IMG/VR virus record: IMGVR_UViG_3300025009_000009
Span: 1 to 64,000 of that record
Direction: 5' to 3' (one strand)
DNA: 64,000 bases
Source: a virus
Both the position numbers and the translations under genes were made by a program. Shown in pieces: positions 4,931 to 62,287 of this stretch; positions within the stretch are counted from its first letter, which is position 1; the number at the start of each line of letters is the position of its first letter. Under the pieces are notes generated by a model that had not been told where the DNA came from, did no database searches, and saw only the letters and a program-made list of their open reading frames with translations.

Positions 4931-5017
4931 ATGCTTGATAATAATCCAAATTTAACATATAATGAAGCATATATAATAATCTTTAACAAAGGTTTATATG
5001 TTATACAAAATACTTAA
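4931..5017 (+). CDS. Possible leader peptide before DNA polymerase
   Basis: A 28-residue frame (MLDNNPNLTYNEAYIIIF...) with an AAAAGGA ribosome site. It runs 20 nt into the polymerase gene in another frame. It may be a short coupled leader peptide or chance. Confidence 0.3.
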   Translation: MLDNNPNLTYNEAYIIIFNKGLYVIQNT

Positions 5018-6770
5018 AAGTGAATACCAAGACTTCCTAGACTATCTTAAAGACACTTCAATCAAATCATTTACAGAAAATTCAATACTTACGTTAGATA
5101 ATAACGAATACATATTTGAAGACATATCACAGTTTAATGAATTAAAGAATCCTAAAAAGAAAGATAACTCACAATTAAATGATACAACTATGTATAACAA
5201 GTGTCAATTAAATGACACAACTGATATAACTACGTCGATTGATAAAGATTTAATCTATGGTAAAGATCCAACTGAACGTATTGTTAATATATCTATCGAT
5301 GATAATTTGGTATATATCTATAGAGAATTAGAAGATGGTACAATAGATACTCAGGTTAAACAAGCTAACTACTGGATTATTGGTGCATCTAAGCCTGCTG
5401 GTAAGTATATTACTTTAGAAGGAAGTCAACCATATAAATACTTAAAAGAATATTCAGACTATGAAGATTATAAAGTAGCTAGAATTAACTGTTATAAGAA
5501 GAAGTCTGATGTATATTCTATATCTAATTTAGTTGAAAGTTACATGGTTAGAAATGGTTATACATATTTTAAGGGAATGAAGATTAGTGAAGTTTCTGTA
5601 CTTTCGTTTGATATTGAAACTACAGGATTAGATCCAAAGCTTGATGATGCTAGAGTGTTACTGATTTCCAATACTTATAGGAATAACAAAGGTGTGATAA
5701 CTAGGAAGTTGTTTAGTTTAGATGACTATGAGAATGATGCTGAGATGATCGAGGATTGGTGTTCTTGGGTGAGGAAAATGAATGCTAGTATATTACTAGG
5801 TCACAATATTTTTTCTTTTGACCTACCTTATTTAAACCATCGTGGAGGAGGGTTAGAACTAGGAAGAGATGATAGTTACTTAACTTTCGAAGAAAGACCA
5901 TCGAATCTAAGAGTTGATGGTAGTCAACAGTATACTTATTTTAAGGTACATATACAAGGAAGGGAATTGCTGGATACTTGGTTTTTATCGATAAAGTATG
6001 ATATACAACGAAAGTATCCTAATTATAAACTAAAAGATATTATAGAATTTGAAGGATTAACACAAAAAGACAGACAGTTTTATGATGCTAGTAAAATAAA
6101 AGATAATTGGCATCTTCCAGAAGAAAGAGTTAAGATTAAGGCGTACTGTATAAGTGATAGTGACGATAGTTTAAAATTGTTCGATTTAATGGGACCATCT
6201 TTTTTTTACTTTACAATTCACTGTCCTAAACCTTTTCAATTAATGTTGGAAAGCGCCTCTGGATCACAAATCAATAGTATGATGGTTAGAAGTTATTTAC
6301 AAATTAATAAATCATTACCAAAAACCACAGAACTATCCCCAGTACAAGGTGCCATAAGTTTCGGACTGCCTAAATTTAGATGCAACGTGTTAAAATTAGA
6401 TTTTTCTGGGCTTTACCCCTCAATAATACGAACTTGGCAATTATATGATCCAATAAAAGATCCAAATAGAAATTTCCTAAAGTTAACCGATTATTTTGCT
6501 GAAGAAAGATTAAAACATAAGAAAATAGCAAAAGATACTGATGATAAATACTATAAAGATTTGGAACAAATGGAAAAACAGACAGCAAATTCAATGTATG
6601 GTATGTTGAATTGTCAAGGATTATTATTCAATAATAGTTTAATCGCTGGTGAAATAACAAGAAATGCTAGAGAATTATTAAATAAAATAACACTATTTTT
6701 TACATCAATTGATATAAATAAATGGAAGGAAAAATTAGATACTGAATCCGAAGAAGTTGAAAATGAGTAG
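4998..6770 (+). CDS. DNA polymerase family B, N-terminal part (exonuclease and motifs A, B)
   Basis: 590 residues. A 3'-5' proofreading exonuclease domain is complete: ExoI FDIETTG (D205, E207), ExoII GHNIFSFD (about 269-275), ExoIII YCISDSDD (Y383, D387). The palm starts with motif A KLDFSGLYPS (D468) and continues to motif B KQTANSMYG (K527 to G535). The frame then stops at 6770, before motif C. The missing catalytic Asp pair is encoded by the next gene, 32 nt downstream in another frame, so the two products must assemble into one replicative polymerase. The N-terminal 190 residues are less conserved and contain a short repeat (QLNDTT twice). Confidence 0.93.
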   Translation: MLYKILKSEYQDFLDYLKDTSIKSFTENSILTLDNNEYIFEDISQFNELKNPKKKDNSQLNDTTMYNKCQLNDTTDITTSIDKDLIYGKDPTERIVNISIDDNLVYIYRELEDGTIDTQVKQANYWIIGASKPAGKYITLEGSQPYKYLKEYSDYEDYKVARINCYKKKSDVYSISNLVESYMVRNGYTYFKGMKISEVSVLSFDIETTGLDPKLDDARVLLISNTYRNNKGVITRKLFSLDDYENDAEMIEDWCSWVRKMNASILLGHNIFSFDLPYLNHRGGGLELGRDDSYLTFEERPSNLRVDGSQQYTYFKVHIQGRELLDTWFLSIKYDIQRKYPNYKLKDIIEFEGLTQKDRQFYDASKIKDNWHLPEERVKIKAYCISDSDDSLKLFDLMGPSFFYFTIHCPKPFQLMLESASGSQINSMMVRSYLQINKSLPKTTELSPVQGAISFGLPKFRCNVLKLDFSGLYPSIIRTWQLYDPIKDPNRNFLKLTDYFAEERLKHKKIAKDTDDKYYKDLEQMEKQTANSMYGMLNCQGLLFNNSLIAGEITRNARELLNKITLFFTSIDINKWKEKLDTESEEVENE

Positions 6771-6802
6771 GTATTAATAATCAAATATATGGTGGTATCA
6801 TT

Positions 6803-7516
6803 ATGATAAAAAAATATAATTTTGAATTAGTTAACTGTGATACTGATAGTATCAGTATTTGTAATTACGATCAAAGTAAAATAACAAAAGAAACCCAAAT
6901 ATTAATGTTAGAAGAAATTAATAAACTATTACCAGGAAAAGTTATATTAGATCACGATGGTTATTTTCCTAAATTCCTAGTTATTAGATCAAAAAACTAT
7001 GTGATGGTTAAAGAAGATGGTAAAATAAAATACAAAGGCAGCTCAATTTTAGACAAAAAAAGAGAGCTAAGTACCCGAAATCTCATGAATGAAATCATTT
7101 CTTCCATCTTAGAAAACGATATTAACTACGACTTAATCAATGCTATCTATGAAAAATACATAATAGAAGCCAACAACGTTACTGACATCAATCAATGGGC
7201 TGTTAAACGTACATACACCAAAGCAATCATGACTAGTGAAAGAACTAATGAATCTAAGGTGCGTGATGCTCTTAAAGATGAAACAATGTCTGAGGGTGAC
7301 AGGTTCTATATTTATACAAGTAAAGGTAATACTGTGAAACTAACAAAACATTGGGTTAAAGGTGACGAAGATTGCGAAAAGCTAACAAAACGCGTGTTTG
7401 ATACGTTAAACATTTTTAAAGAAATACTTGACATGTCTAAATTTACGAAGTATCATTTAAAGACTAAACGAAAAGAATTGGAGAAATTACTAAATGAAAA
7501 TGCAACAATTTTATAA
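6803..7516 (+). CDS. DNA polymerase family B, C-terminal part (motif C, thumb)
   Basis: 237 residues beginning with 12 residues and then motif C, C-DTDS (D13, D15), the second metal-binding pair of family B polymerases. A lysine-rich KSKNYVMV-type segment and the thumb follow. It has its own ATG but only a weak upstream GGTGG, so its start may depend on coupling to the first part. Codon use and protein sequence show no decay. I read this as a functional split polymerase; an unrecognised frameshift or an error near 6770 is the alternative. Confidence 0.9.
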   Translation: MIKKYNFELVNCDTDSISICNYDQSKITKETQILMLEEINKLLPGKVILDHDGYFPKFLVIRSKNYVMVKEDGKIKYKGSSILDKKRELSTRNLMNEIISSILENDINYDLINAIYEKYIIEANNVTDINQWAVKRTYTKAIMTSERTNESKVRDALKDETMSEGDRFYIYTSKGNTVKLTKHWVKGDEDCEKLTKRVFDTLNIFKEILDMSKFTKYHLKTKRKELEKLLNENATIL

Positions 7517-8689: not shown

Positions 8690-9874
8690 ATGTCAAGTTA
8701 CACAGATAGTATGATTATTTTTATAAGGGAACTAAAAGATAAAGGAAATACTTGGGATGAAATAGCTGTTAAATTTAATAAAAAGTTTGGTGAAGAAGAA
8801 AGAAAGACAGCTAATGCTTTAAGAAAAATATACTCACGTTATTCTGATATAGACTTTACCGATGAAACTGTGATAAACAGTATTCAAAGTAATGAAACTT
8901 CAAAAAAGAAGTCGTCTATTTTAGCTAAAGAAAATAGAGCTTTAGTTAATTATGTATCTGGTAGGAAGAATTTATTAGAAGAAATTAGAGAAATGTTATC
9001 TAGTAGATCATTTACACAATATAAAGTACCAATATATAAACCAGATAAGTCTAAACGAAATATGACAATGGAAACATTATTAAGTGATTTGCATGATGGT
9101 AAAAGAACACCAACATTTAATAATAGAATACTAAAAGAAAGATTACAAAAATATACTTCAGTTATTATTGGTGAAATAAATAGATATGAAAAAATATATA
9201 ATGTTGAACGTATTGTTGCACCTATTTTAGGTGATTTAATAGAAAATTCATATATGCATGGTATAGAATCTTTAGCTGGTTGTGAATATCAGAATCCTGA
9301 ACAAATTAGACATGTTACCCAATTATTATTTCAAGATTTTCTTATACCATTATCATTAACTGGAAGGCAGATAGTAGTTCCTTGTCTGACAGGAAATCAT
9401 AGTAAATATTCCTTTAAAGATACATATATTGATCCAGGAAAAAATAATTTAAGTTGGATAATTTATAACATGTTAGAAATGCTATGTAAAGCATCTAAAT
9501 TAACAAATATTGAATTTATAATACCTGAAGGTATATATTGTGTCTATGAAATATATGGAGATCCTATATTATATGAACATAAAGTTGACAGTTATCAACA
9601 AAAAAATGTAGAAGCTCATATACATGATAGATCTAAACAAGTCAAGAAGATGATAAAATTTGCTAGATTTGGTCATTTTCATGAATCATTATCTTATGGT
9701 AGGGGTAGAATTATATTTAATGCTTCATTTAGTGGTCTTGACTCTTATTCTGAGATAAAAGGATATTCATCTGAGCCAAGCCAGACCATAAATTATTATA
9801 TAGAAACAGATACTAGATGTGATAGCTATTACCACTCATTTATAGTGAATTTAAACAAATATGAAAAAGTGTAG
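8690..9874 (+). CDS. Calcineurin-like metallophosphoesterase (SbcD/Mre11-like)
   Basis: 394 residues. Residues 1-55 look like a helix-turn-helix (DKGNTWDEIAVKFN...). The phosphoesterase core follows with all signature motifs in order: LSDLHDG (D133, H135), LGDLIEN (181-185), LTGNHSK (G235-N236-H237) and GHFHES (327-332). Enzymes with this arrangement are binuclear-metal phosphodiesterases; in phages they are often DNA repair or recombination exonucleases. No SbcC-type ATPase is in the window. The gene ends inside the start of the HNH-AP2 gene. Confidence 0.85.
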   Translation: MSSYTDSMIIFIRELKDKGNTWDEIAVKFNKKFGEEERKTANALRKIYSRYSDIDFTDETVINSIQSNETSKKKSSILAKENRALVNYVSGRKNLLEEIREMLSSRSFTQYKVPIYKPDKSKRNMTMETLLSDLHDGKRTPTFNNRILKERLQKYTSVIIGEINRYEKIYNVERIVAPILGDLIENSYMHGIESLAGCEYQNPEQIRHVTQLLFQDFLIPLSLTGRQIVVPCLTGNHSKYSFKDTYIDPGKNNLSWIIYNMLEMLCKASKLTNIEFIIPEGIYCVYEIYGDPILYEHKVDSYQQKNVEAHIHDRSKQVKKMIKFARFGHFHESLSYGRGRIIFNASFSGLDSYSEIKGYSSEPSQTINYYIETDTRCDSYYHSFIVNLNKYEKV

Positions 9875-10523
9875 TAAATGTAAAAAATTAAAAGAAAATT
9901 CTGATTTTACAAAAAAACAAAAAGATGGAGAATCGTTAAGATCTCAATGTAAAGAATGTGAACGAGAATATAGTAGATTATATGATACTAGAACAAAAAA
10001 CAAGGTATCAAAAAAATATGAAAAAACAATAAATGGTTTTATAATGAGAGTATATAGAAATATGAAATCTAGAGTTTTAGGTATTCAAAAACAAAAATTT
10101 CATTTATATGAAAATTTAGAACTTTTAGATAAGGATCTATTCTATGAATGGTCAAAAAACAATATAGATTTCTTAACATTATTTAAAAATTGGGAAAATA
10201 ATAAATATGTAAGAAAATTAACACCTAGTATTGATAGAATAGATTCAAAAAAGGGATATGTTTTTAATAATATTAGGTGGGTTATTTTTAGTGATAATTG
10301 TAAAAATATCCAAAGATTACAGTCAAATAACACAAGTTCATATCGTGGTGTATATTTTAATAAATCTAACAATAGATGGGTTTCTCAAATAAGTCACGAT
10401 AAAAAACATTATTTTTTAGGATATTTTGAAAATATTGAAGATGCTATAGAAACATATAATAAAAAAGCAATTGAATTATTTGGAAAATTTGCTTTTATAA
10501 ATATTAAAAAAATAGAAAATTAA
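9861..10523 (+). CDS. HNH homing endonuclease with AP2 DNA-binding domain
   Basis: 220 residues in three modules. The N-terminal zinc finger has CSKCKK...CKECE (residues 4-34). The HNH-like core is PSIDRIDSKKGYVFNNIRW near residues 117-135. The C-terminal AP2 domain runs from SSYRGVYFNKSNNRWVSQI to FGKFAFIN. This is the composition of free-standing phage homing endonucleases. It starts inside the last codons of the phosphoesterase gene, as expected for a mobile gene inserted at a gene boundary. Confidence 0.88.
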   Translation: MKKCSKCKKLKENSDFTKKQKDGESLRSQCKECEREYSRLYDTRTKNKVSKKYEKTINGFIMRVYRNMKSRVLGIQKQKFHLYENLELLDKDLFYEWSKNNIDFLTLFKNWENNKYVRKLTPSIDRIDSKKGYVFNNIRWVIFSDNCKNIQRLQSNNTSSYRGVYFNKSNNRWVSQISHDKKHYFLGYFENIEDAIETYNKKAIELFGKFAFINIKKIEN

Positions 10524-13744: not shown

Positions 13745-14089
13745 ATGACACAATATGAAAAAGACTTAGCTGCTGTTAAACAAAATGGTTATGCTTTACA
13801 ATATGTTAACCATCAAACAGAAGAATTGTGTTTAATTGCTGTTAAAGAATATGGTAATGTATTACAATATGTTAAACATCAAACACCAGAACTTTGTTTA
13901 GCTGCTGTTAAAGAGAATGGTTATGTTTTACAATATGTTAAACATCAAACAGAAGAAATATGTTTAGCCGCTGTTAAGGAAAATAGTTATGCTTTACGTT
14001 TGGTTAAACCAGAGATTAAAACAGAAGAATTCTTATTACGTTGTTTAGAAAATAATATAGCTTGTATAGAACATATGGAGATAAAATGA
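13745..14089 (+). CDS. DUF4116-type repeat protein (complete copy)
   Basis: 114 residues made of four DUF4116-like repeats (core 'ELCLAAVKENGYVLQYVKHQT'-like, about 24 residues each) plus a C-terminal cap. It shares 133 bp with the gene at the left window edge. AAAGGAAAG precedes the ATG. The stop overlaps the start of the resolvase gene (ATGA), so it is coupled to a recombination enzyme. Function unknown. Confidence 0.75.
   Translation: MTQYEKDLAAVKQNGYALQYVNHQTEELCLIAVKEYGNVLQYVKHQTPELCLAAVKENGYVLQYVKHQTEEICLAAVKENSYALRLVKPEIKTEEFLLRCLENNIACIEHMEIK
13936..14068 (+). repeat. Direct repeat copy B (133 bp)
   Basis: Matches 219-351 with one visible mismatch, same orientation. The two copies bound the whole early block (about 13.7 kb apart). 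Confidence 0.9.
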
Positions 14090-37781: not shown

Positions 37782-38411
37782 TTATTCCTGATATTTATTA
37801 CTTTTTCTTAAATTATCTATAGCAAATAATGGTTGTAAATTAGTATAGTGAAAACATTTCTTCTGTTCTTCTTCATTTGTTAAATCAAATTTACTAATTG
37901 GTTTAATATGATCTATATGCCAAACTATTCCTCTATTTTCCCATGTCATCCCTTCCTTAAATTGTTTTTCTAAATATATTTTTAATTCTTCAATTGTACA
38001 TCCAACCAATTCCATAGTTTTTTTATATTTTCTAGTACCTTTTAAAACTTTATTTATTTTTGTACGAATTAACCACATAAATCTATATTCAGGATCAGAA
38101 TGATATCTTTGGTTAACATATCTTCTCTTATAATCTCTAACCTTCTCTATATTATTTAATCGCCAATTTTTATTTCTTATTTTTATTTTATCTTTATTTT
38201 TTAAATATCTCTCATGACTTTTAATCTTTTTTTCTTCTTCAGTCAATTTAATTTTTTCTTTTTTTGGTTTTCTATTTTTTTCTAAATAAATTTTCCTTTC
38301 TATTTTTCTACATTCTTTACAATCATTTCTTAAACCATCTTTGGATGAAGTTTTTTTACCAAATTCATTTAACTCTTTATCTTTTTTACATTTTGTACAA
38401 ATTTTTCCCAT
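37782..38411 (-). CDS. HNH homing endonuclease
   Basis: 209 residues: an N-terminal four-Cys zinc finger (CTKCKK...CKEC, residues 5-34), a long Lys/Arg-rich DNA-binding linker, and a C-terminal HNH core (VWHIDHIKPISKF ... NLQPLFAIDNLRKSNK). It is free-standing between two fibre genes, the usual place for a mobile endonuclease next to its own target. Confidence 0.88.
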   Translation of the reverse strand: MGKICTKCKKDKELNEFGKKTSSKDGLRNDCKECRKIERKIYLEKNRKPKKEKIKLTEEEKKIKSHERYLKNKDKIKIRNKNWRLNNIEKVRDYKRRYVNQRYHSDPEYRFMWLIRTKINKVLKGTRKYKKTMELVGCTIEELKIYLEKQFKEGMTWENRGIVWHIDHIKPISKFDLTNEEEQKKCFHYTNLQPLFAIDNLRKSNKYQE

Positions 38412-38420
38412 TTTTATCTC

Positions 38421-40025
38421 TTAATCCAAATATATACTAGTAGCAAAATATTTAATAAATGCAGAACTAAATCCGGCAAAGTTCGGACTTGAATAAGTTA
38501 CTTGACCAGCAGACACATCAAATGTAATTCCTGATACATCACCAGAATGGTTGGCATCTAAAACCCATGTACCATTTTTATTAACTAAATTTAATTTAAA
38601 CATTTGATAATAATCAACAGTAGCATCAACGAAAACATATGCTAGTATTTCAACACAATGAGTATCAACATGAAAATTCATACCTAATACGTTAGTGTTT
38701 GTTTGATTATTTTGTAAATTAGCTACTCCAGTTTTTTGTTTTGCATATTTCCAAGTTTGTGTTCCTGAGATTTCTGGATTAGTATAAGTTTTATTTGTTA
38801 ATTCTTGAGTATCACTTGTTCCTACAATACTTCCTGTTACACCATGAACACCACTTGAAGGATCATCAACTTCAGCACCGTGTTCAAAGTTAGTAAAAGT
38901 ATTATTATCAGCATCCATAGTTTTATTTGTTAAAGTTTGGTTATCATCTTTACCAACTATGTCTGAGGTAGTTCCATGTGTTGTTGTATCTAAAATGTGA
39001 TTATTCAAATCACTTGCAACAGTTCCAGTATTACCAGATACTGTAGCAATTGCTGCATCTAAATCATCTAACACATCTTGTACGTTAGAAGAATTACTAT
39101 ATGTAAATTCATCTATTGTACTTATAGCTGAAGCATCATGAGCATCTGTTACATTAGTTATGTGATTGCTTAAATTAGTTCCAACGGTACTTACAGCACC
39201 TTCAGCGGTTTCTAACCTTCCCTCAACCTCATCTATAGCATCTTGTACATCGGTCGCTACAAGCCCAGAAACAGCGTTATCGTAGGTTATCTCACTAGCT
39301 TGGTCATGATTAGCAATAGCATCGTTGATCGCTTTATAGATACAAGCGGACGTTGCTATATGGGTTTCATTGTTAATCAACCCTGTCGTTGCTGTATCCA
39401 ATATACTACTCTTTATATTTGTAGTATTTATATTACTAATTGTGCTGTTATCAGCATTTATAGTTTTGTTAGTTAATGTTTGGTTATCGTCTTTACCAAC
39501 AATATCACTAGTTACACCATGTGTTGTCTTATCTAATTCATGATTTGAAAGATCTGTTGCTACGTTACCTATGTTTGTTTCTGCTGTACCTAGTCTTCCT
39601 TCAACTTCATCTATTGCAGCTTGAACATCTGTGGCTACTAATCCAGAAACTGCATTATCATAAGATATTTCACTAGCTTGATCTTTTGTTGCAATAGCAT
39701 CAGCTAAAGCTTTGTAAATAGAAGCTGATGTTGCTAAATGTGTTTCGTTGTTGATTAGACCTGTTGTTGCTGTGTCTAATATTGAAGTCTTTATGTTTGT
39801 GGTATTTATGTTAGTTATTGTACTAGTATCAGCATTTATTGTTTTATTTGTTAGTGTTTGAGTTTGTGTATCGGTAATTATTTCTCTATCAGCACCATTT
39901 ATATGTACTTTTATCTTTTCATTATTTTGATTATAAAGATTACCTTCAGAAGATTTATCATATGTTCTAGACGTTAGTTCTTTAACTAATATAATACCTT
40001 TAATCCATGCCCATGCTTTTTTCAT
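38421..40025 (-). CDS. Long repeat fibre with shared C-terminal module
   Basis: 534 residues. It has two nearly identical repeats of about 125 residues (DNQTLTNKTINAD ... ILDTATTGLINNETHLATSA ... VEGRLGTAETNIGNVATDL), plus partial copies of DNQTLTNKT near 365 and of TDTQTLTNK near 55. The C-terminal about 100 residues carry the module shared with the proteins at 31076 and 40047 (GITFDVSAGQVTYSSPNFAG). A classic long trimeric fibre. Confidence 0.72.
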   Translation of the reverse strand: MKKAWAWIKGIILVKELTSRTYDKSSEGNLYNQNNEKIKVHINGADREIITDTQTQTLTNKTINADTSTITNINTTNIKTSILDTATTGLINNETHLATSASIYKALADAIATKDQASEISYDNAVSGLVATDVQAAIDEVEGRLGTAETNIGNVATDLSNHELDKTTHGVTSDIVGKDDNQTLTNKTINADNSTISNINTTNIKSSILDTATTGLINNETHIATSACIYKAINDAIANHDQASEITYDNAVSGLVATDVQDAIDEVEGRLETAEGAVSTVGTNLSNHITNVTDAHDASAISTIDEFTYSNSSNVQDVLDDLDAAIATVSGNTGTVASDLNNHILDTTTHGTTSDIVGKDDNQTLTNKTMDADNNTFTNFEHGAEVDDPSSGVHGVTGSIVGTSDTQELTNKTYTNPEISGTQTWKYAKQKTGVANLQNNQTNTNVLGMNFHVDTHCVEILAYVFVDATVDYYQMFKLNLVNKNGTWVLDANHSGDVSGITFDVSAGQVTYSSPNFAGFSSAFIKYFATSIYLD

Positions 40026-40046
40026 TATGTAATTCCTTTAAATGTA

Positions 40047-40715
40047 TTATACTGAAATTATTGATTTGGCAAAAAACTTTAATAAAGAAGCGTGAGATCC
40101 AACTTCTCCACTTAAAACTTCTGGATTATAGGTTATTGTACCAGAAGAATTTATATCAAATTCAACCTTAGCATCACCTAATCTTCTTTGGGCTAATACC
40201 CAACCTTGAAGTGAGTAGTTTCCAGAAAGGACACCACTCTCTACTAATTCAATATCAAACTTACCACCAACATCAGAACCATTAAATGTTGAAAGAATAC
40301 TAAAAGATGTTGCATTTATTCTAGTAATAACAAATGTACTGTCTATGTTTGAAGTATCTGTTATTGTTACAGTATCACCGTTGTTTAGATTGTGATTATA
40401 TGAAAGTACCACAATTGTGGTAACTCCATTACCAGTATAGGAAGTTATTTCTTTAGTAATCCGTCTTGATATGTTATATGGAGCTTCAAATGATCTAACT
40501 GTTGAAGAATTGAAATGGAATGTTATTATTTCTTTAGCTCCAGAAGTATTTAGTATTGTTTCTGAAGTTTCAATAATGTCATCTGGACCTTGGAGTGTAT
40601 TTAATGCATCAATAATTGCATTTATTATATCAGCTTGTTCCTCACCCCAAGGAGCATTCTCACCTTGAAGTGGTAGGTTATAAGTCTTATTATTAATATA
40701 TACGATTTTAGACAT
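40047..40715 (-). CDS. Fibre/appendage protein with shared module
   Basis: 222 residues. The N-terminal YINNKTYNLPLQGENAPWGEE resembles short appendage anchoring segments of other phages. A beta domain (about 85-150) is inserted, and the last 45 residues (KVEFDINSSGTITYNPEVLSG) are the end of the module also seen at 31076 and 38421. It is the first gene downstream of a perfect late-promoter site. Confidence 0.65.
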   Translation of the reverse strand: MSKIVYINNKTYNLPLQGENAPWGEEQADIINAIIDALNTLQGPDDIIETSETILNTSGAKEIITFHFNSSTVRSFEAPYNISRRITKEITSYTGNGVTTIVVLSYNHNLNNGDTVTITDTSNIDSTFVITRINATSFSILSTFNGSDVGGKFDIELVESGVLSGNYSLQGWVLAQRRLGDAKVEFDINSSGTITYNPEVLSGEVGSHASLLKFFAKSIISV

Positions 40716-40739
40716 TTGTTTTCCTTGATGTTATTATAT

Positions 40740-40756
40740 ACATTAATACTTGATAA
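40740..40756 (-). promoter_or_regulatory. Late promoter motif (perfect copy)
   Basis: Minus strand TTATCAAGTATTAATGT, 17/17, 24 nt before the start of the gene at 40715 and just after the capsid-gene terminator. Confidence 0.75.
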
Positions 40757-40782
40757 GATTAAATAAATACTGGAAATTAGAT

Positions 40783-40825
40783 AAAAAAAAGGGAGAGCAG
40801 AACGCCCCCCCCCCCCCCCCCCCCC
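40783..40825 (-). terminator. Terminator after the capsid gene with a G21 tract
   Basis: On the minus strand a run of 21 G (40805-40825) is followed by CGTTCTGCT, then CTCCC and T8. GGGGG pairs with CTCCC to give a terminator-like hairpin before the U-tract. Because any five G of the run can pair, the hairpin can slip. Confidence 0.7.
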
Positions 40826-40852
40826 TAAAGGTAGGATAACTGTTTGTTATAA

Positions 40853-42988
40853 TTAGTTAACGATACCAGTGAATACGATATTGCGTCCTAAAGCATTACA
40901 GAAAATTGCTAAGTCACAATAAGTACGATATTCAATACCGTTTTGATTTTCAAGAACAATTAACATTTCTTCATTTTTTCCTGGAAGATTGAAAGTAATA
41001 TCAGAAGATCCAACTCTTTCAAAAGATTCAAGGTCAAGTCCGAAAGCTATTCCTTCTTTAACATAAGTACAGCTAATGATTTCAATCAAACCATTTTGGC
41101 TATGAAATACGATAGTTTGTGAACCATTCTCATATTTCTTGACATCATAAGACTCATCAAATAGTCTTTTTGCTGTTTGTTCATTTAACAAATCAGACCA
41201 TGTTTTAGGATTAACGAAAAGAGAAATCTTTCCTTCAAGTCCTTTAGCTACTGCATCAGCAATACCATCAGAAATTTTTTCGAATGATAAAGCTCCACCT
41301 ACTGGATAAACGTTACCTGTCCATAAGCTGTAATCAGTAGAAACACCAAAAATGTTACCAGTAGTAGTTGTTAACATTTTATAGATACCCATAAATTCGT
41401 TACCCTTAGCACCATGCTCATAAATAACTAGTTCATCACCAGCTAATTTAGAAGCTTTCAAAGTAGCTAAGTTATCACCTACAGCAGAAGCCATATCAAC
41501 ATAAAGTCTTTTGTTTCTGATATCAACTTTAGTAATTTTGATAATAGTAGTGTTCATTGCTGAATCAGTTAGATTATAAATATCTAACTTCATTTTCTCA
41601 CCACCAACCCAAATTCCAGGTGCCCATTCAGCTACTGTAATATCAAAATAAGCAGAAGCATCATCAACAACACTTATAGTAGCCAATCCAGATTGACCAT
41701 AGAAACATTGGTATTCATGCTTCTTATAAGTTGAATTTAAAAGGTTACGAACAACATGTTTTGTTGCTTTACCGTAAGCAGCAGCATCATTAATGGAACG
41801 TGAAATAGCTGCGAATGATAATTGGGCTTTCAATATCATTTCACAACCTTTTACTGTTGCTTCTTTAGTAGCTCCTGAAATTGCATCTTTTAAAGTTACA
41901 ATTTCTCCAGAATCACCGTTGTAAGAAACTCCGTGCTCTAACATATTGTTATTACTAGCTTTTGATGCTAGTAAGTTTGAGTAATCAAACTCTCAGTTTT
42001 ATCTATTTTATAACTGAGATCAGAAACAACTTGAATTTTATAAAGCATATCAGGATGAATATAATCTTTTATTAAATTAATAAATCTTTCTTTATCTTCT
42101 TTTTTTCCAATTCTAATATAAGGATAAAAATTATGTTCAAGATATACTTTACTATGAATATTAAATTTTTCTAATAATAAATTAGAAAGTTTAATAACAT
42201 CTTCTTTTGGAAATCCACCTAAAGAAAATTTAAAAGCTTTTAGTTTTCCTTTATGACTTTCTTTTGAACCATCGTCCATAAAAAGTATAGCTAAAGAAAT
42301 TTCATTAAAATGTTTTAGAACATAATCAGTTATTCTTTTTTTACCATCAACAATCATTCTATAATATAAAGAAGTAAATTTATGATGTACAGTTGTCCAA
42401 AATCTATAAAAATTTTGTCTTTTTCCCGAAGGTGATGTCATAGATTTAGCTAAACACATTTTACTTCCAACACCATATTCTGTTGATATCAAATCTAATT
42501 TCCATTTACCATAATCTTTTTGTTTCTCACAATGACCAAAAAGTATATGTTTATTTTTTTTTCCAGCAAAAGAAGAATCTCCTAACAATGTCCCTATTAA
42601 AAACGCTTTTTTATTTTTCTTTAATTCCAACATTCGAACTCCCTATTGGGTTTCTTTTATTTTTTCAAGTTGACTTTCGCATCTTCTTTCGAAGTCCTTT
42701 CGTTAAGTCGTTCAGGCTGGTTTTACCCTTGCCCCTTGTTACCTTTATTATATTATAGAAAGGCTTCCAAGTCAATTAGAAAGGATTTTACTTGGGCTTA
42801 GATTGCACTATCTATTGTTAACCCAAATTAATCGTATTCTTGTATTCCAATCCCATTCTTTTATTAGGTGATACGAAAGGTATCATCTTAGAAATCTTAA
42901 CACCTTCTGGTATTAAATCAGTTAATTCGCCATAAATGGATTTATGAAAACCATTTAGAGCTGCCATATCATTATGATTATAAGACAT
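40853..42988 (-). CDS. Major capsid protein, interrupted by a group I intron
   Basis: Two exons: 42821-42988 (56 codons, MSYNHNDMAALNGF...NTINLG) and 40853-41941 (362 codons from LEHGVSYNGDSGE). The 879-nt stretch between them is a group I intron. The spliced product is 418 residues. The Met at 41944 is the last intron codon, not the start; the real start has AAGGAGTTTCT before ATG at 42988. Size, position right after the scaffold gene, and composition identify the HK97-fold-type major capsid protein. Residues such as GQSGLATISVVDDAS and FVNPKTWSDLLNEQT are typical of this class. It forms the capsid shell. Confidence 0.88.
41942..42820 (-). mobile_element. Group I intron in the major capsid gene
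   Basis: Splice sites follow from pairing. Exon 1 ends TTGGGT and pairs with AGCCCAA (42792-42798) to form P1 with the required U.G at the splice site. Exon 2 starts TTAGA and pairs with the adjoining TCTAA (42798-42802) as P10. The intron ends in G. Downstream of the guide lie GAACGACTTAACG (42701-42713, R-like) and AAGATGCGAAAGTC (42672-42685, S-like), whose GACTT/AAGTC form P7. Splicing rejoins the frame as NLG-LEH. It carries a LAGLIDADG gene behind the catalytic core. Confidence 0.9.
41968..42633 (-). CDS. LAGLIDADG homing endonuclease (intron-encoded)
   Basis: 221 residues with two LAGLIDADG-type helices, FLIGTLLGDS (11-20) and SLAILFMDDG (113-122), making a monomeric two-repeat enzyme. 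Conserved GCG-like and GGFPKED segments follow. It is encoded wholly inside the intron, after the core and 26 nt before the 3' splice site, with a GGGAG ribosome site. It should cut intronless capsid genes at the exon junction to spread the intron. Confidence 0.9.
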   Translation of the reverse strand: MLELKKNKKAFLIGTLLGDSSFAGKKNKHILFGHCEKQKDYGKWKLDLISTEYGVGSKMCLAKSMTSPSGKRQNFYRFWTTVHHKFTSLYYRMIVDGKKRITDYVLKHFNEISLAILFMDDGSKESHKGKLKAFKFSLGGFPKEDVIKLSNLLLEKFNIHSKVYLEHNFYPYIRIGKKEDKERFINLIKDYIHPDMLYKIQVVSDLSYKIDKTESLITQTY

Positions 42989-43019
42989 ATAGAAACTCCT
43001 TAATTTATTTAAAAAATAT

Positions 43020-43042
43020 CATTTATAGACTACCTATAAATG
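43020..43042 (-). promoter_or_regulatory. Hairpin in the capsid mRNA leader
   Basis: A perfect 9-bp inverted repeat CATTTATAG/CTATAAATG with a 5-nt loop, 32 nt before the capsid start. Followed on the minus strand by ATATTTTTT. It may be a 5' stabiliser, an RNase site or a weak attenuator. The whole 42989-43219 stretch holds no convincing gene. Confidence 0.55.
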
Positions 43043-43144
43043 AAAAACCTACTTTGTTTGTTAATTACTCTTTTTCTATTTCTGGTATTTCATAATCCAT
43101 CGTTGGGTATATGAAAATCATAATAAATACTAAAATAATAACCC

Positions 43145-43161
43145 ACATAAGTACTTGATAA
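43145..43161 (-). promoter_or_regulatory. Late promoter motif (15/17) for the capsid gene
   Basis: Minus strand TTATCAAGTACTTATGT, two differences from the consensus, 156 nt upstream of the capsid start, between the scaffold terminator and the leader hairpin. Confidence 0.6.
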
Positions 43162-43185
43162 TTATGTTGTACTAAGATAACAAAG

Positions 43186-43208
43186 GGTTACCTATTAGCT
43201 AGGTAACC
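43186..43208 (-). terminator. Terminator after the scaffold gene
   Basis: A 9-bp stem GGTTACCTA/TAGGTAACC with a GCTAA loop, followed on the minus strand by CTTTGTT. It separates the scaffold transcript from the capsid promoter, giving the capsid its own strong transcript. Confidence 0.75.
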
Positions 43209-43219
43209 TGTTTAAATTA

Positions 43220-44170
43220 TTATATTTTACTCCAAAAATCTTTTTGTTCTATCGTTTTAAATTTTCGGTCAATAACTTCTTTATTTGGTTTACTTCCAGT
43301 ATCCTTTATACTATTACTAGTTGGTGGTGCTTCTTTTTTAACTGGTTCAGCTTTCTTTCTTTTCTTTATTATTTGTCCAACTTTATCTTCACCCAACAAT
43401 TTTTCAATAACTTCTAAAGGCATTACACTAGCTATCGATTTGATTTCATTTAGTATTTGATCTTTAACCAAAGGAACGATATCATTAAAACTAACATCAA
43501 TATTATTCTTCAATGCTATTCTCATATATCCAGTCATTCTATTAATAATCTCAGGATTCATTGGTAATTGATTCTTTTCAATAGCAGCCATCAAATCTCT
43601 TTGATATTCAGCAGCATATCTATCTTGTAGTGCTTTCATTTCAATTTCTTCAGCACGTTTTTTAGCTTTCTGTTCTTCTTCTTCCTTTTGTCTAAGCTTT
43701 TCTTGAAGTTCCATTAACTCTCTATCTTTTGGATCTAGTTGAGCTTTCTCTAATTTGTCATTCATTATCTTTTCAGAAAGTCCATCAATATCAATACCCA
43801 TTTTACGTAAAGCATTAGCTGTATCTTTTTGTAAATAGTTAAAGAAGTCTTGTAAATCCTTTTGTACCTTAGCATCTTTCTTTTCTAGTTCAGCAGCTTT
43901 TTGTGCTCTTTTCTGTGACATTTCAGCAAGTTGAACCATTCTAATTAGTTCTTCTTCGTTAGCTAAGTCAATTTGTTTTTCAATTTCTTTACCATCAACT
44001 TTAATGTTTAACTTTTTTAAAGTTGACTTAACTGCGTCTTTCATTTCAGGACTAGCTTCTGCTGGTTGTTCTGGTGCAGCTTCAACATTACCTTCTTCTG
44101 GTTGTACAACAGCTTCTACATTTTCTGCTGGTGCTTCTTGTGATGGTTGTTCTTGTGTTACTTCAGCCAT
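43220..44170 (-). CDS. Scaffolding protein
   Basis: About 316 residues. It has an acidic Glu/Pro/Ala-rich N-terminus (VEAVVQPEEGNVEAAPEQP), a long central coiled coil (about 75-190) and a basic C-terminal end (KKRKKAEPVKKEAP ... TIEQKDFWSKI), which usually binds the capsid. This composition, and position between portal and capsid, is diagnostic for phage scaffolds. The frame is open from 44191, but AAAGG fits the ATG at 44170. Confidence 0.82.
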   Translation of the reverse strand: MAEVTQEQPSQEAPAENVEAVVQPEEGNVEAAPEQPAEASPEMKDAVKSTLKKLNIKVDGKEIEKQIDLANEEELIRMVQLAEMSQKRAQKAAELEKKDAKVQKDLQDFFNYLQKDTANALRKMGIDIDGLSEKIMNDKLEKAQLDPKDRELMELQEKLRQKEEEEQKAKKRAEEIEMKALQDRYAAEYQRDLMAAIEKNQLPMNPEIINRMTGYMRIALKNNIDVSFNDIVPLVKDQILNEIKSIASVMPLEVIEKLLGEDKVGQIIKKRKKAEPVKKEAPPTSNSIKDTGSKPNKEVIDRKFKTIEQKDFWSKI

Positions 44171-44278
44171 AAATTTTCCTTTGTTTACCATCCATATAGG
44201 ATAGGTGTATTATTTTCTCCATCGATAGTGATAGGAGAATGACGAGTAAATCTTTCGAAAAACTCGTCAAAATGTATA

Positions 44279-46330
44279 CTAACTATTTGATATATTTGTC
44301 ATTCCTTCATTTGCTGTTAATGGTGCATTTTCAAAACCTTCAGGCATTCTTGGCTTTTGTAATGTTGTATCTTGTTGATTCAATGCCTGTTCTACTGGTG
44401 GTAGATTTTGGGGTGCTTCCATTTGTGATGGTGATGTTGTCTGTCCTGGATTTGGTTGGGTTATTGGTTGAACTATCGGTTGAATACCCATAGCTTGTAA
44501 CAACATAGGATCTGTATTTTTCCAAGTTTGAATATGTTCATTGATATGAGTTAATACTAGATTAACTAACTCAGCATCAGATTTTAATATAGTATCATTC
44601 AATACACCTCTATGACATTGAATATGTTTGGGGTGATTTTCTATAGCTAATACAATAGGTTTTGTTCCCATTAAGAAACCTTCGTTTTCACCACGTATTA
44701 AAAATTCCTCTTTTACAATATCTTCTGTACCCATTTCTAATTTACCAGTATGTATAATTGTTATGTATTGTTCTGGGGTAAGTGTGCCATATTGAAGTAA
44801 ATTATCAGCCATTTGTGCTCTACCAGCAAGTGTATTAGTTAAAGGATTTGCAACATCAACAATAACTCTATTTATAGAACGTAGGTCTTCTCCTTTAAAT
44901 TCTTTCATATACGACCTTCCAGATTTACCAACAATAGCCGCAATTCTTGGAGAGTTAGCAAAATCTTGAAGTATTTCAATTAAACAAATACCGACATTTT
45001 CAATTAAGTAAATATATTCTTGTTGTAAACCCGACATAAATTGTATAGCATTAGTTTGTACCATAGCCAATGCTGATCCAGAACGTAAAGATGCTTCTGG
45101 ATTTCCTCTAGCTGTTGAATTTATAGCCGATAGAGTTTCCATATCTTTAACATAACGATCCATTAAATTATACAATTCAGGAGCTGTTTTTGTTAAGTTT
45201 AAAGCTTCAGGTTTAGCACCACCTTGAGGGTTATAATCCATGATACTTAAACCATTAGCTAATTGTGTGACATCAATATTTGATCCACTAGGATTTAATA
45301 TTGTTTGTACACCAAAAGCAACGTTGTTACTTAATGCTGCTGAATTTAAACTATTATGTGCGTCCTGTATTGATAGTAAATCAAATAAAGGACTATATCC
45401 TAATGGTGTTCCTAGTATTCTTCCTGGATAAATTGGGAATACAGGTATCCTCCTATATGGTAGTTCACCCTCATGGAGTATTGCTTCTTCAGAAACAAAT
45501 AACATATATTTACCTTCAGGCATTGCCTCACTACGCCTGTGATAAAACTCTAACACAGATATATCATCAGTTTCATCTCCACTATATAAACCAACACGTA
45601 CTCTTTTCGAATGATCTTTCGATTCTATAGCCATTATTTCTTTTTCTAAATGTGGATACTTAGCGATCAAGTCATATCTATTTTTAAATGATCTAGTTAT
45701 AATCCAATCGAAATCTCTACCTTCTTTGGAAAGATCCATAACAACATCTAAAGCTGATAGAACATTAAATTCAACATCACCTTCATACTGTGGATCTGGT
45801 ATTTCTACTTTCTCTCCATTTTCTTGTAGTTCTTTGTATTCTTGTATTTCTTTTTTATTAGTTACTTCACCTAACATACCATTCCAAGACATTTTCATCC
45901 AACCCAAAGATGTAGATAATGCATATTCACATGCCATCTTTAAGTATTCTTCTAGTTTCTTTTCTCTCATATAATAGTCAAGTAGACCATTTCCTAGATA
46001 TGTCTGTGTAACCGATTTAAAGTCTGTATTTACTGCTCTACATTCCATTGCCGGTCTAGTTGATGTTGTCATAGTCAACATATGTCTAGCTATGTTTCTG
46101 AGATGATTAACTACTATCTGAGCTAGTTCTCCATCTTCACCAGCAAACGTAATTTGATGAGCTTCACCTATTGAATTATAGTATCCACCATAATATGCAG
46201 CATATAAATCTCTAAGTTTATCCATGAATCCACAAGAGTTAAGTGATCTATCCCATGATTCAATTTTAGATAACAAAGCTGAAGCACATTCTTTTGATTC
46301 TCTTGCTGCAAAATATTTATTATTTTCCAT
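44279..46330 (-). CDS. Portal protein
   Basis: 683 residues. The features are those of large podovirus portals: an N-terminal clip/stem region, a central DLLSIQDAHNSLNSAALSNNVA segment and SINSTARGNPEASLRSGSALAMVQ in the crown-side helices. It ends in a Pro/Gln-rich flexible tail. Twelve copies form the DNA-entry ring. It is followed by the scaffold and capsid genes. AAGGAT ribosome site. Confidence 0.85.
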   Translation of the reverse strand: MENNKYFAARESKECASALLSKIESWDRSLNSCGFMDKLRDLYAAYYGGYYNSIGEAHQITFAGEDGELAQIVVNHLRNIARHMLTMTTSTRPAMECRAVNTDFKSVTQTYLGNGLLDYYMREKKLEEYLKMACEYALSTSLGWMKMSWNGMLGEVTNKKEIQEYKELQENGEKVEIPDPQYEGDVEFNVLSALDVVMDLSKEGRDFDWIITRSFKNRYDLIAKYPHLEKEIMAIESKDHSKRVRVGLYSGDETDDISVLEFYHRRSEAMPEGKYMLFVSEEAILHEGELPYRRIPVFPIYPGRILGTPLGYSPLFDLLSIQDAHNSLNSAALSNNVAFGVQTILNPSGSNIDVTQLANGLSIMDYNPQGGAKPEALNLTKTAPELYNLMDRYVKDMETLSAINSTARGNPEASLRSGSALAMVQTNAIQFMSGLQQEYIYLIENVGICLIEILQDFANSPRIAAIVGKSGRSYMKEFKGEDLRSINRVIVDVANPLTNTLAGRAQMADNLLQYGTLTPEQYITIIHTGKLEMGTEDIVKEEFLIRGENEGFLMGTKPIVLAIENHPKHIQCHRGVLNDTILKSDAELVNLVLTHINEHIQTWKNTDPMLLQAMGIQPIVQPITQPNPGQTTSPSQMEAPQNLPPVEQALNQQDTTLQKPRMPEGFENAPLTANEGMTNISNS

Positions 46331-46343
46331 AAATCATCCTTAA

Positions 46344-47024
46344 TTAAGAAAACAAAGGTTTTTGAAAAGTTAAACCCCAAGCCGTATATACATCATTACC
46401 GTCTATTTTTCCACTAACTAATAAACCACCTGTCATTATTATTTTTATTTTATATCTTTCACCGCGATAGAAATCAAATTCTATAGCACAAGTTAATTGT
46501 GATACATTTTGTAAAGTATCTTTATAGTCTAAAACAAACCATTCTTCATCAGATTCTTCACCAACTTTAAATATACTTAACGTTACTGTACTAACATCAA
46601 GTAAAGATTTTAATTTCATTTGTAAGTCTAATAAATATATACCATCTCTAGGTATAACAAATTCGTCATTATCTGAATCATAATTACCATCTAAATCCCA
46701 AAGTACTCTAGATGATGTTACTGCGGTCCAAGAAGTTGATATGTTTTGATCTGTACCATTTTTATCAACAGCTAATGAAGAATAAAAATCAAAAGGATTC
46801 ATTCTATTCATATGTAGAATCGCCTTTTCATACGACAAATCTTCAACACCATCATTTAATATGACTGTACCATTTTCTAATCTAGTTAATACACTCTCAC
46901 TAGATAATAATTTGAACCATTGGTTTGATGGTACATCATATGATTCACCAGAAGGAATATCACTATTTAATATTTGTATAGTCTCTTCTGTATTATTTTT
47001 AAGTATCTTTTTCATCATAATCAT
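46344..47024 (-). CDS. Virion protein with C1q-like domain
   Basis: About 226 residues. The C-terminal half shows the strand pattern of a C1q/TNF jelly roll (FVIPRDGIYLLDLQMKL ... EFDFYRGERYKIKIIMTGG). It lies between terminase and portal, where head fibres and decoration proteins of this phage are encoded. The start is placed at 47024, which overlaps the previous stop (ATGA); the frame is open from 47045. Confidence 0.6.
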   Translation of the reverse strand: MIMMKKILKNNTEETIQILNSDIPSGESYDVPSNQWFKLLSSESVLTRLENGTVILNDGVEDLSYEKAILHMNRMNPFDFYSSLAVDKNGTDQNISTSWTAVTSSRVLWDLDGNYDSDNDEFVIPRDGIYLLDLQMKLKSLLDVSTVTLSIFKVGEESDEEWFVLDYKDTLQNVSQLTCAIEFDFYRGERYKIKIIMTGGLLVSGKIDGNDVYTAWGLTFQKPLFS

Positions 47025-47804: not shown

Positions 47805-48333
47805 TTATATCCTATTCCCTTTTTTCATATTTTCTATAGCAGGAAGATATTGTAAATTCCAAGGAACATGTAGTCCAGTAATATTTTTACCTTTTATCGG
47901 TATTATATGATCAACATGATATCCTTTTGGACAATTTTTATATATTAATTTTAATTCTTCTTTTTGTTCTTTTGTTATCCATTTTGGTTGAACTTTTTTG
48001 TTTCTTCTACTATTTTCTCTTACTTTTGCTCTAGAATTATCTATATCTAAATAATATTCTCTTTTAGAACGTTCTCTACTTTTTTGATGTGTTAATTCTA
48101 AATCTTCATAATAATATTTTTTTTGCATTAATTCTTCCTAATTCGCATATTCTATCTTTATTTTTTCTATAATATTTTCTTCTTCTAGAATTAACGTTGT
48201 CTTTTGTTTCTCTTATTCTATCTATTTTACATTTTCTACAATATGAACTTCTTCCAGATTTTTTTGCTCTATCAATACAAAAATCTTCTATATTTTTTTC
48301 TTGTTTACATTTAGGACAGAACTTAGTTGTCAT
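47805..48333 (-). pseudogene. HNH homing endonuclease broken by a frameshift
   Basis: Two frames form one protein. 48106-48333 has the N-terminal zinc finger (CPKCKQ...CRKCK) and runs to RINAKKILL. 47805-48128 continues with KKYYYEDLELTHQK and ends in the HNH core (YHVDHIIPIKG ... WNLQYLPAIENMKKGN). They overlap at an A8 run (48117-48124); with A7 the frame would read through as INAKKYYYEDL. It is either a decayed element, a real slippage site, or a base-call error. Confidence 0.8.
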
Positions 48334-51034: not shown

Positions 51035-53017
51035 TCATCTACGACGCTTAACTGTGAAAATGTCACGAATACTCTGTTGAACGTCCGTAAGTTGTTGTTT
51101 TTGTTTAGGAGAGTAGAATCCACCTTTAGGTAAATCGTAATCTTTAGGGTATGGATTTTTATGATAGTTGATGTTACGTATCAAATAAATCAATGCATCT
51201 AAACAGTCAAAATGTGAACCATCAGCAGCTTTCTCATATTTAGTTCTTGCTTTATTCCAAGTAGCATTCATTAAATGAAATATTAGGTTTATACATCTAG
51301 GATTTATCTTTAGTTTTTTACCAGAAACTTTCATACGTAAAGCGTTTATTTGTGCGTTTTTATCATCTTTTCTAGTTGGTATAAACGATAAGTTGTGTAA
51401 GTTATTAAAGTCTACGATAATTTGCCAACTAGTATCACATATCCTTGACTCTGGTAATTTGTCACCCCAAAGCATCTTTTCCTTTAATTTAATAGCATCA
51501 GCCATATCAATAGTTGTATATTCTTTACCATTGAATACTAATTCATCTTCAACAACAATTTCATCATTTCTAAAATCATAATACGCAAACAAAAAAGCTG
51601 TCCAATCTAGTATACCAAAGTCACCAGAAGTATAACATGTATAGTGTGCTGGTCGTTTCCATGTTTGTATTATGTCTTTCATTTTTTCATCAGTAGCTTC
51701 TGGTATAACTAATGAATTTGTGTCAGCTAATAATTTACATAAGTATTCTCTTTTAAAATCTATAGAATCTTTACCACCAACAGCATTAGCCATTTCTTCT
51801 ATTTCATATCCTTTAAATCTAGGACAATCATATATAGTTCTTCTGGTATATGCTTTTTTATAGTCAGCTTCTTTAATATATTTATTAAATGTATGTGCTG
51901 CTGAAGATGGTGGAGTTGAAATCATGATTGTTAATCTACGCTTAGACGTATTCATAGTTGGAAATAATACAGATTTATAATAGTAGTCAAATTCAGATGA
52001 ATCCATAAATCCACACTCATCCATGAATACCCTATCAAATCTTTGACCTCTAGCATTTTCAATATTACCAGAGTCTGTACCAATACAATGAATTTCAGAA
52101 CCATTATCAAATACGAATACGTTTTCTTGAGTATTAAATTTAGGTCTTAATTCTTTAGGACAATCTATACATATTTCATTGAAACGAGATTTAATTAATT
52201 TTCTAGCTTGATTCTGTCTAGGTAAAACGTAAGCTATTTTAAAGTTGGGATTACGAATACATTCTTCGATTGCTAATAAAGAAATTAGGAAAGAGTTATG
52301 AGTTACCAATCCATCACCAGTAAGATATAAATGTGTATCATTATCAACAGTAATATCCCAACATTGTTCCATTCTTCTATTTTCTTTTCTAACACTAACA
52401 GAATCTGTCACACCATTTACAACAGTTACTATTTTATCATACTCATTAAAATCTTTTAGTGGTTTCTCCAAAAGATTACCTTCACCATTTTTAACTAACC
52501 AGTAATGTTCATCAGTACAACCAGCTAAAACTTTACCATTACCAACTAAATCAAATACTTCTTCAACACCACAATCTATTTTATCAACAACTTTAGTTGG
52601 ACTTACACTACCGTCTTTATTATATCCATAAATAATATCACCAATATTAATATCTTTGATTAACTTTGGTCCAGTTTCTGTGATGACGTAAGTACTTGAA
52701 TTTATTGACTTTCCAGTTTGTCTTGAGAGGCACCATACTAACAAATTATTCTTAGTAGTATGGTAATTTTCATATAAACTTTTCTGATTACTATCCAACT
52801 TCCAATGAAGTACTCCTCTTTTCCACAATTTAACAGCAGCTTCTCTTTGTAATCTCTGTTTTTTAGCATCAGGTTTAGTTGTACCTTTAGGTCTACCTCT
52901 AGGTACAATCTTGACTAAATCTTCTTCAGTATTTATTATTTTACTATCAACAACAGGTTCTTTATCCTCAACAACTTCTTCTATGATAGTTTTATCTCCA
53001 CTATTCATCATCTTCAC
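51035..53017 (-). CDS. Large terminase subunit with a mini-intein in Walker A
   Basis: 660 residues before splicing and 522 after. The Walker A motif CLSRQTGK-S is split after GK by residues 104-241 (see intein). After the intein come FLISLLAIEE, the Walker B FMDEC (331-335), and a C-terminal RNase H-fold nuclease (SGDFGILDWTAF ... SRICDTSW ... DGSHFDCLDALIYL). It drives packaging and cuts the concatemer. The frame opens at GTG 53017; AGGTG fits the ATG at 53008 better, so the start is uncertain by three codons. Confidence 0.92.
   Translation of the reverse strand: MKMMNSGDKTIIEEVVEDKEPVVDSKIINTEEDLVKIVPRGRPKGTTKPDAKKQRLQREAAVKLWKRGVLHWKLDSNQKSLYENYHTTKNNLLVWCLSRQTGKSINSSTYVITETGPKLIKDINIGDIIYGYNKDGSVSPTKVVDKIDCGVEEVFDLVGNGKVLAGCTDEHYWLVKNGEGNLLEKPLKDFNEYDKIVTVVNGVTDSVSVRKENRRMEQCWDITVDNDTHLYLTGDGLVTHNSFLISLLAIEECIRNPNFKIAYVLPRQNQARKLIKSRFNEICIDCPKELRPKFNTQENVFVFDNGSEIHCIGTDSGNIENARGQRFDRVFMDECGFMDSSEFDYYYKSVLFPTMNTSKRRLTIMISTPPSSAAHTFNKYIKEADYKKAYTRRTIYDCPRFKGYEIEEMANAVGGKDSIDFKREYLCKLLADTNSLVIPEATDEKMKDIIQTWKRPAHYTCYTSGDFGILDWTAFLFAYYDFRNDEIVVEDELVFNGKEYTTIDMADAIKLKEKMLWGDKLPESRICDTSWQIIVDFNNLHNLSFIPTRKDDKNAQINALRMKVSGKKLKINPRCINLIFHLMNATWNKARTKYEKAADGSHFDCLDALIYLIRNINYHKNPYPKDYDLPKGGFYSPKQKQQLTDVQQSIRDIFTVKRRR
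52295..52708 (-). mobile_element. Mini-intein in the terminase Walker A motif
   Basis: 138 residues (terminase 104-241). Block A is SINSSTYVITETG with Ser1, block B GCTDEHYW has the TxxH signature (T168, H171), block F is CWDITVDNDTHLYL, and block G is LVTHN followed by Ser+1. No endonuclease domain is inserted. Splicing restores CLSRQTGK-SFLIS, a normal P-loop. Insertion in the catalytic P-loop of a terminase is typical for inteins. Confidence 0.93.
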
Positions 53018-60974: not shown

Positions 60975-61112
60975 ATGACGAAGATTTTAAACCTTCTTAA
61001 ACAAAGAATAGAAGTACATTTAAGTGGTTTTAACGTAAGAGAGAAAGATATACCAGAGTTAACGAAACTTATATTAGAAGAAATAGAAGATTTACTGAAG
61101 GATAAGAAATGA
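60975..61112 (+). CDS. Small helical protein before RtcB
   Basis: 45 residues (MTKILNLLKQRIEVHLSGFN then a Glu/Lys/Leu-rich helix) with ATGA overlap into RtcB and GGAG before its start. The coupling suggests it is made with RtcB. No family recognised. Confidence 0.55.
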   Translation: MTKILNLLKQRIEVHLSGFNVREKDIPELTKLILEEIEDLLKDKK

Positions 61113-62287
61113 AATATATAGACACTGAAAATGTTATAATTAAAAGTTGGTGTAATGAACCTGAAGAAAGTACTATAGAACAAGCTAAAAATCTAGCAAA
61201 TCTTCCTTTTGTATTTAGACAAGTTTGTTTAATGCCAGACACACATATGGGTCATGGTATGCCTATTGGTGGAGTTTTAGCTACTAAAGGTGTTGTAATT
61301 CCAAACGCTGTTGGTGTTGATATTGGGTGTGGAATGTATTGTGTTAAAACCTCATTAAAAGTAAACGAAATAGATACTGAAACTATAAAAAAAATAATGA
61401 CTATAATTAGAAAAAAAGTACCTGTAGGATTTGCTCACCACCAAAAAGAACAGCCATTACAATATATACCAAAAATTGACAATAATTTATTTTTTACTCA
61501 TGAGTTATATATTATAAATAATGAATTTTCATCGGCTATGAAACAAGTTGGTACATTAGGTGGTGGTAATCATTTTATTGAAATTCAAAAAGGATCTGAT
61601 GGTTATGTATATTTTATGATACATACAGGAAGTAGAAATTTAGGTAAAAAAGTATGTGATTATTATAATAAAATAGCTAGAGATATAAATGATAAATGGT
61701 TTTCTAAAGTACCTAAAGAATGGGATTTAGCGTTTTTACCATTGGATACAAGAGAAGCTAAACTATATATAAACGAAATGACATTTTGTTTAGAGTTTGC
61801 GTTTTTAAATAGAAAACTTATTGCCGAAAGAATAAAAGAATCGTTTTTAGATGTTATTTCTTGCTCTTTTACTGATGAAATTAATATACATCATAATTAT
61901 GCAGCTATTGAACATCATTTTGATTCTAATGTTGTTGTACATAGAAAAGGAGCTACATCGGCTAGAGATGGTGAATTAGGATTAATACCAGGATCACAAG
62001 GAACATCTTCTTATATAGTTAGAGGAAAAGGAAACGTAGAATCGTTCATGAGTTGTTCACATGGTGCTGGTAGAAAACTTAGTAGAACAAAAGCTAGAAA
62101 TGAATTAAATTTAGAAAATGAACAAAAGATTTTAAACGATAAAGGTATTATACATTCAATAAGAAATCAAGAAGATTTAGATGAAGCTAGTAATGCATAT
62201 AAAGATATTGATATAGTAATGGAAGAACAAAAAGATTTGGTTGATATTTTAATAAAACTAGAACCTATGGGTGTAATCAAAGGATAA
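61109..62287 (+). CDS. rtcB: RtcB RNA-splicing ligase
   Basis: 392 residues with the RtcB signature in order: MPDTHMGHGMPIGG (42-55), GVDIGCGM (69-76, metal-binding C74), LGGGNHF (150-156), HNYA (262-265), HRKGATSA (278-285) and SCSHGAGRKLS (315-325) with the nucleophilic His at 318. It joins 2',3'-cyclic phosphate or 3'-phosphate ends to 5'-OH RNA using GTP. Phages use it to repair tRNA cut by host anticodon nucleases. Length is close to the bacterial enzyme. Confidence 0.94.
   Translation: MKYIDTENVIIKSWCNEPEESTIEQAKNLANLPFVFRQVCLMPDTHMGHGMPIGGVLATKGVVIPNAVGVDIGCGMYCVKTSLKVNEIDTETIKKIMTIIRKKVPVGFAHHQKEQPLQYIPKIDNNLFFTHELYIINNEFSSAMKQVGTLGGGNHFIEIQKGSDGYVYFMIHTGSRNLGKKVCDYYNKIARDINDKWFSKVPKEWDLAFLPLDTREAKLYINEMTFCLEFAFLNRKLIAERIKESFLDVISCSFTDEINIHHNYAAIEHHFDSNVVVHRKGATSARDGELGLIPGSQGTSSYIVRGKGNVESFMSCSHGAGRKLSRTKARNELNLENEQKILNDKGIIHSIRNQEDLDEASNAYKDIDIVMEEQKDLVDILIKLEPMGVIKG

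Follow-up and report, generated by a model that had tools for sequence, protein, structure and literature searches.

A probable mobile group I intron encoding an I-SceI-like endonuclease in the probable major capsid gene of a phage related to a Silvanigrella phage

The gene of the LAGLIDADG enzyme I-SceI lies within an intron of a mitochondrial rRNA gene. Among phages, the Cluster J mycobacteriophage LittleE has a probable group I intron of ~820 bp in its major capsid gene, with a LAGLIDADG gene inside it; splicing of this intron was shown by RT-PCR and N-terminal sequencing (PMC3706429). An intron in a capsid subunit gene is also attributed to the lactococcal phage Tuc2009, as cited in PMC3706429. 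The LAGLIDADG_2 genes of phrog_11023 include one in a group I intron of the DNA polymerase gene of a Nitunavirus, a Bacillus phage (PMC11878797). Concerning the functions of such proteins, the intron endonuclease of PhiPA3 cuts a gene of co-infecting relatives and gives a competitive advantage (PMC11620839), and a LAGLIDADG protein of Thermotoga has been reported as a splicing helper (PMC3984707).

We analysed 64,000 bases of an uncultured bacterial virus (the window, positions 1-64000 of a record of 85,259 bases), which contain P22-like portal and terminase genes. Based on the sequence, we give a probability of about 95% to the reading that a mobile group I intron lies after codon 56 of the probable major capsid gene and has an I-SceI-like endonuclease gene inside; splicing, cleavage and homing are predicted activities. 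The features of the locus are presented in Table 1.

Table 1. Coordinates of the features of the interrupted gene and its intron in the window
Feature	Coordinates	Strand	Basis
Exon 1 of the probable capsid gene, residues 1-56 (168 nt, 56 aa)	42988-42821	-	In-frame join to exon 2; homologue alignment; profile match
Predicted group I intron, 879 nt	42820-41942	-	RF00028 19.1 bits; core descriptor; P1/P10
P1 and internal guide sequence, with UCUAA for P10 5' of the guide G	42790-42828	-	Sequence; unique solution
Catalytic core, P3-P8	42785-42672	-	Helices checked base by base; Rfam alignment agrees in part
P3	42785-42779/42701-42695	-	UCCUUUC/GAAAGGA
P4	42771-42768/42738-42735	-	Base-by-base pairing
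P5	42763-42759/42746-42742	-	Base-by-base pairing
P6	42734-42731/42717-42714	-	Base-by-base pairing
P6a	42727-42725/42721-42719	-	Base-by-base pairing
P7, guanosine-site elements	42709-42705/42676-42672	-	GACUU/AAGUC
P8	42694-42691/42686-42683	-	CUUC-GAAA-GAAG
Proposed P9/P9.1	42671-42637	-	AACU/AGUU, CCC/GGG; sequence and pairing
Predicted LAGLIDADG_2 homing endonuclease gene, 221 aa	42633-41968	-	PF03161, phrog_11023, PDB 6x1j
Element	41953-41975	-	Sequence and local fold
Exon 2 of the probable capsid gene, residues 57-418 and stop	41941-40853	-	27-31% identity to uninterrupted Silvanigrella phage gene

Split gene and uninterrupted homologue

Exon 1 is preceded by a Shine-Dalgarno-like AAGGAG and ends in AAT TTG GGT; its unspliced reading frame meets an immediate stop inside the intron (GGT/TAA). 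The next long ORF of the gene, of 363 codons on the minus strand, starts with an ATG at 41944, which is formed by the final three bases of the intron and has no Shine-Dalgarno-like sequence upstream. ORF calling therefore starts the capsid protein at 41944. Removal of the 879 nt from 42820 to 41942 joins the two exons in frame and gives a protein of 418 amino acids (...NTINLG-LEHGVSY...). An earlier reading of the window, made from the sequence only, had called the start at 41944 apparent, had described a 168-nt exon upstream of an 879-nt insert, and had expected ORF-based annotation to mis-start the protein and miss its first 56 residues. The position of the ATG agrees with the first of these claims, the coordinates of the second are exact, and the third is supported by the join and by the homologue described below.

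The same protein is encoded as a single uninterrupted gene in the Silvanigrella phage CP017838 (L006:7953-9320). The 418-aa protein is 27.2% identical to this homologue over 95% of the query (E=5e-37). In this empty-site comparison, which consists of one distant homologue, the alignment crosses the exon junction gap-free at residue 56, as the sequence-only reading had anticipated for an intronless capsid homologue. Residues 19-56 of exon 1 align with the N-terminal part of the uninterrupted protein; the residues shared before the junction are Y19 G20, T23 D24, P27, I36 P37 F38, Y49 and L55 G56. Also, in four further assemblies of the virus, a profile built from the two proteins matches exon 1 and exon 2 separately; the match to exon 1 covers the first 61 positions. 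In IMG/VR, the only relatives of the capsid protein found were from the same virus; the Silvanigrella homologue as the query in IMG/VR, together with a genome_contigs search, gave no relatives. A 98% match to residues 47-418 was considered as an empty site and rejected, since that stretch, together with its intron, is 100% identical to the window at the DNA level.

At the DNA level, no resemblance to the stretch 40000-47000 was found among 50,697 annotated phage records. The nearest relative found is the phage of Silvanigrella aquatica named above, whose capsid, portal and terminase proteins are 27-29% identical to those of the window. Another four contigs of IMG/VR represent the same virus, with >99.9% identity to the window over the stretches that were compared; all four contain the identical intron, which rules out an assembly error.

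Some other genes of the window were also noted. The ORF of the terminase large subunit (51035-53017, minus strand) contains an in-frame insert of ~138 aa in Walker A (RQTGK^SINSSTYV...DGLVTHN^SFLIS), which resembles a mini-intein: it has Ser at position 1 and no endonuclease, and its intein C-terminal region (TIGR01443) scores above the cut-off; the terminase of the Silvanigrella phage reads RRFGKSFL and lacks the insert. A family B DNA polymerase (4998-7516, plus strand) is divided into two ORFs (4998-6770 and 6803-7516) with 32 bases between them; the P3-P8 descriptor (see below) finds no group I core there, and a split enzyme, a frameshift or an assembly error are possible. Three ORFs (9861-10523 on the plus strand, 37782-38411 and 47805-48128 on the minus strand) look by eye like free-standing HNH-type endonucleases, two of them among the structural genes. 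The ORF 61109-62287 (plus strand) reads in translation as an RtcB-like RNA ligase, a possible RNA repair gene in an intron-carrying phage. Finally, ORFs 13-369 and 13745-14089 (plus strand) contain repeats of ~22 aa (LAAVKENGYALQYVKHQTEEIC-like), which are alike at both places.

Group I core, splice sites and endonuclease

All pairs of P1, P3, P4, P5, P6, P6a, P7, P8, P9 and P9.1 were verified in this single sequence. An alternative P3 partner (42763-42758) was dropped because it already belongs to P5 and would leave no P4. In an all-family Rfam search, the 241-nt leader matches the group I model RF00028 end to end (model positions 1-253) on the same strand, with 19.1 bits (E=0.0067), which is below the gathering score of 50, a curated cut-off and not a mechanistic feature; the match appears only with the 241 nt and is absent when the whole window or 1.4 kb is searched. 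P3, P5 and the R element of P7 are placed by this alignment as in the base-by-base model, and the second strand of P7 is poorly assigned. As a control, RF00028 gives 83 bits beside the LAGLIDADG_2 gene of Bacillus phage BpSp. The descriptor of P3-P8 matches nowhere but at this intron when both strands of the 64 kb window (128 kb) are scanned. Of 406,791 shuffled leaders, none matched it, and 71 matched P3/P7/P8 alone; the zero count overstates the significance, as the descriptor was composed after the sequence was seen. Looking for related introns with a pattern of the R region gave none; the one contig returned (L028) is unrelated, a chance match inside a coding gene. The group I intron with R/S-like core elements that had been proposed earlier is thus borne out by the core P3-P8 and by the sub-threshold RF00028 match over the same stretch.

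The intron starts with TAACAATAG and ends in ...AATATG; its terminal base is G, and the base 5' of the 5' splice site, at the end of exon 1, is U. P1 consists of eight pairs including the U.G at the cleavage site, formed by AUUUGGGU (42828-42821) and GCCCAAGU (42797-42790), and P10 of five pairs between UUAGA of exon 2 and UCUAA directly 5' of the guide G. When all U.G P1 helices of at least 6 pairs and all P10 helices of at least 5 pairs were enumerated in both flanks, exactly one P1/P10 solution was obtained. It gives the splice sites of the sequence-only reading, which had derived them from P1 and P10 independently and had rejoined the frame as NLG-LEH; an in-frame pair of this kind arises by chance in 42 of 20,000 shuffles (0.2%).

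The LAGLIDADG gene described earlier within the insert is likewise supported by the PF03161 profile (E=2e-28, 99.9 bits against a cut-off of 25) and by the acidic residue retained in each of its two motifs, FLIGTLLGDSS and LAILFMDDGS. The protein also matches phrog_11023 ('homing endonuclease with LAGLIDADG motif'), and its closest solved relatives are PDB 6x1j (E=9.5e-16) and I-SceI (7e-8). LLGD and FMDD align to the same motifs of 6x1j, and the second motif also to that of I-SceI. The ORF is full length and located on the sense strand of the intron. Most of its Shine-Dalgarno-like AGGGAG falls in the stems proposed as P9.1 and P9, and folding of the RNA could thereby damp translation of the endonuclease; the stop codon sits in a stem near the 3' splice site. 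Distant relatives are found in crAss-like phages and in BpSp (26-30% identity), and the relatives found in IMG/VR are of the same virus only.

Proposed mechanism and alternative readings

In the mechanism we propose, the intron RNA would fold in the late transcript, with P1 (U.G) holding the 5' splice site and P10 the 3' exon. Excision by two guanosine-initiated transesterifications is predicted to give the mRNA for the 418-residue protein. The internal ORF, read from unspliced or intron RNA, would provide the I-SceI-like LAGLIDADG endonuclease, which in co-infection may cut intronless capsid alleles around the NLG/LEH site; repair after cutting would then copy the intron into the intronless allele.

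It is unlikely, although conceivable, that the intron RNA is intact and the element immobile, or that the protein has turned into a splicing helper (maturase). Maturase-like activity is possible for LAGLIDADG intron proteins (PMC3984707), and the IMG/VR assemblies yielded no intronless allele for this virus. However, the ORF is retained at full length together with both motif acids, and the five assemblies come from one near-identical population and thus give little information on mobility. Within the mobile intron reading, a further proposal, made by analogy with PhiPA3, is unlikely as well: the endonuclease could serve as a weapon against the capsid genes of co-infecting relatives, with an advantage for its carrier beyond homing, capsid translation might have to wait for splicing, and P9.1 might conceal the start of the endonuclease gene.

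Concerning the identity of the host gene, it is very probably the major capsid gene, based on the gene order: the P22-type portal (PF16510, 44279-46330) is followed by an acidic scaffold-like gene (43220-44191) and then by the split gene, which is the portal, scaffold and capsid order of P22. Of the earlier claim that the capsid gene is split, the split stands, and the sequence and fold searches gave no confirmation of the capsid identity. Profile searches with the protein gave no capsid family matches, neither the P22 coat nor the crAss001 capsid protein was matched when profiles were compared, and an AlphaFold model of exon 2, made without an alignment, has a pLDDT of 35. The match to phrog_14242 ('major head protein') is weak (E=0.019) and belongs to the Silvanigrella homologue only. 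These results leave room for a structural gene other than that of the major capsid protein; we regard this as improbable, since the gene lies directly after the portal and the scaffold-like gene and, by position, no gene of the head region fits the capsid better.

It is very improbable that the insert is an element of another kind, whether a group II intron or an endonuclease gene splitting the capsid gene into two separately translated proteins: free-standing endonuclease-like genes occur in this genome and exon 2 has an in-frame ATG at its start, but that ATG lacks a Shine-Dalgarno-like sequence and belongs to the intron end, the insert has the group I core and P1/P10, and the N-terminal part of the homologue is conserved in exon 1. 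The chance that frame, homologue, core, P1/P10 and endonuclease agree by accident would be negligible.

Significance and comparison with known systems

The locus illustrates clearly how annotation from ORFs gives a structural protein the wrong start and loses its first 56 residues, and how an intron escapes Rfam at the default cut-off. A further I-SceI-family enzyme, whose target site can be predicted, is thereby added from a little-known phage lineage related to the Silvanigrella phage. One genome also appears to combine an intron (in the probable capsid gene) and an intein (in the terminase) among its head and packaging genes.

This arrangement is already known from LittleE, where a capsid intron with a LAGLIDADG gene was described and its splicing shown. 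In both phages exon 1 ends in U, the intron ends in G and the LAGLIDADG gene lies within the capsid intron; the two phages are unrelated at the DNA level, and the LittleE endonuclease gene is on the opposite strand and I-CreI-related, whereas the gene described here is on the sense strand and I-SceI-like. Tuc2009 shares the intron in a capsid gene and belongs to another phage and host group. The Nitunavirus and BpSp (L009) Bacillus phages have endonucleases of the same family, but other genes are interrupted; the BpSp enzyme has ~26% protein identity, and RF00028 matches flank its gene on both sides. I-SceI and 6x1j belong to the same LAGLIDADG family by sequence, but the target site must differ here. 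The locus is a well-supported further example of this arrangement, from a new phage lineage and with a sense-strand I-SceI-like enzyme.
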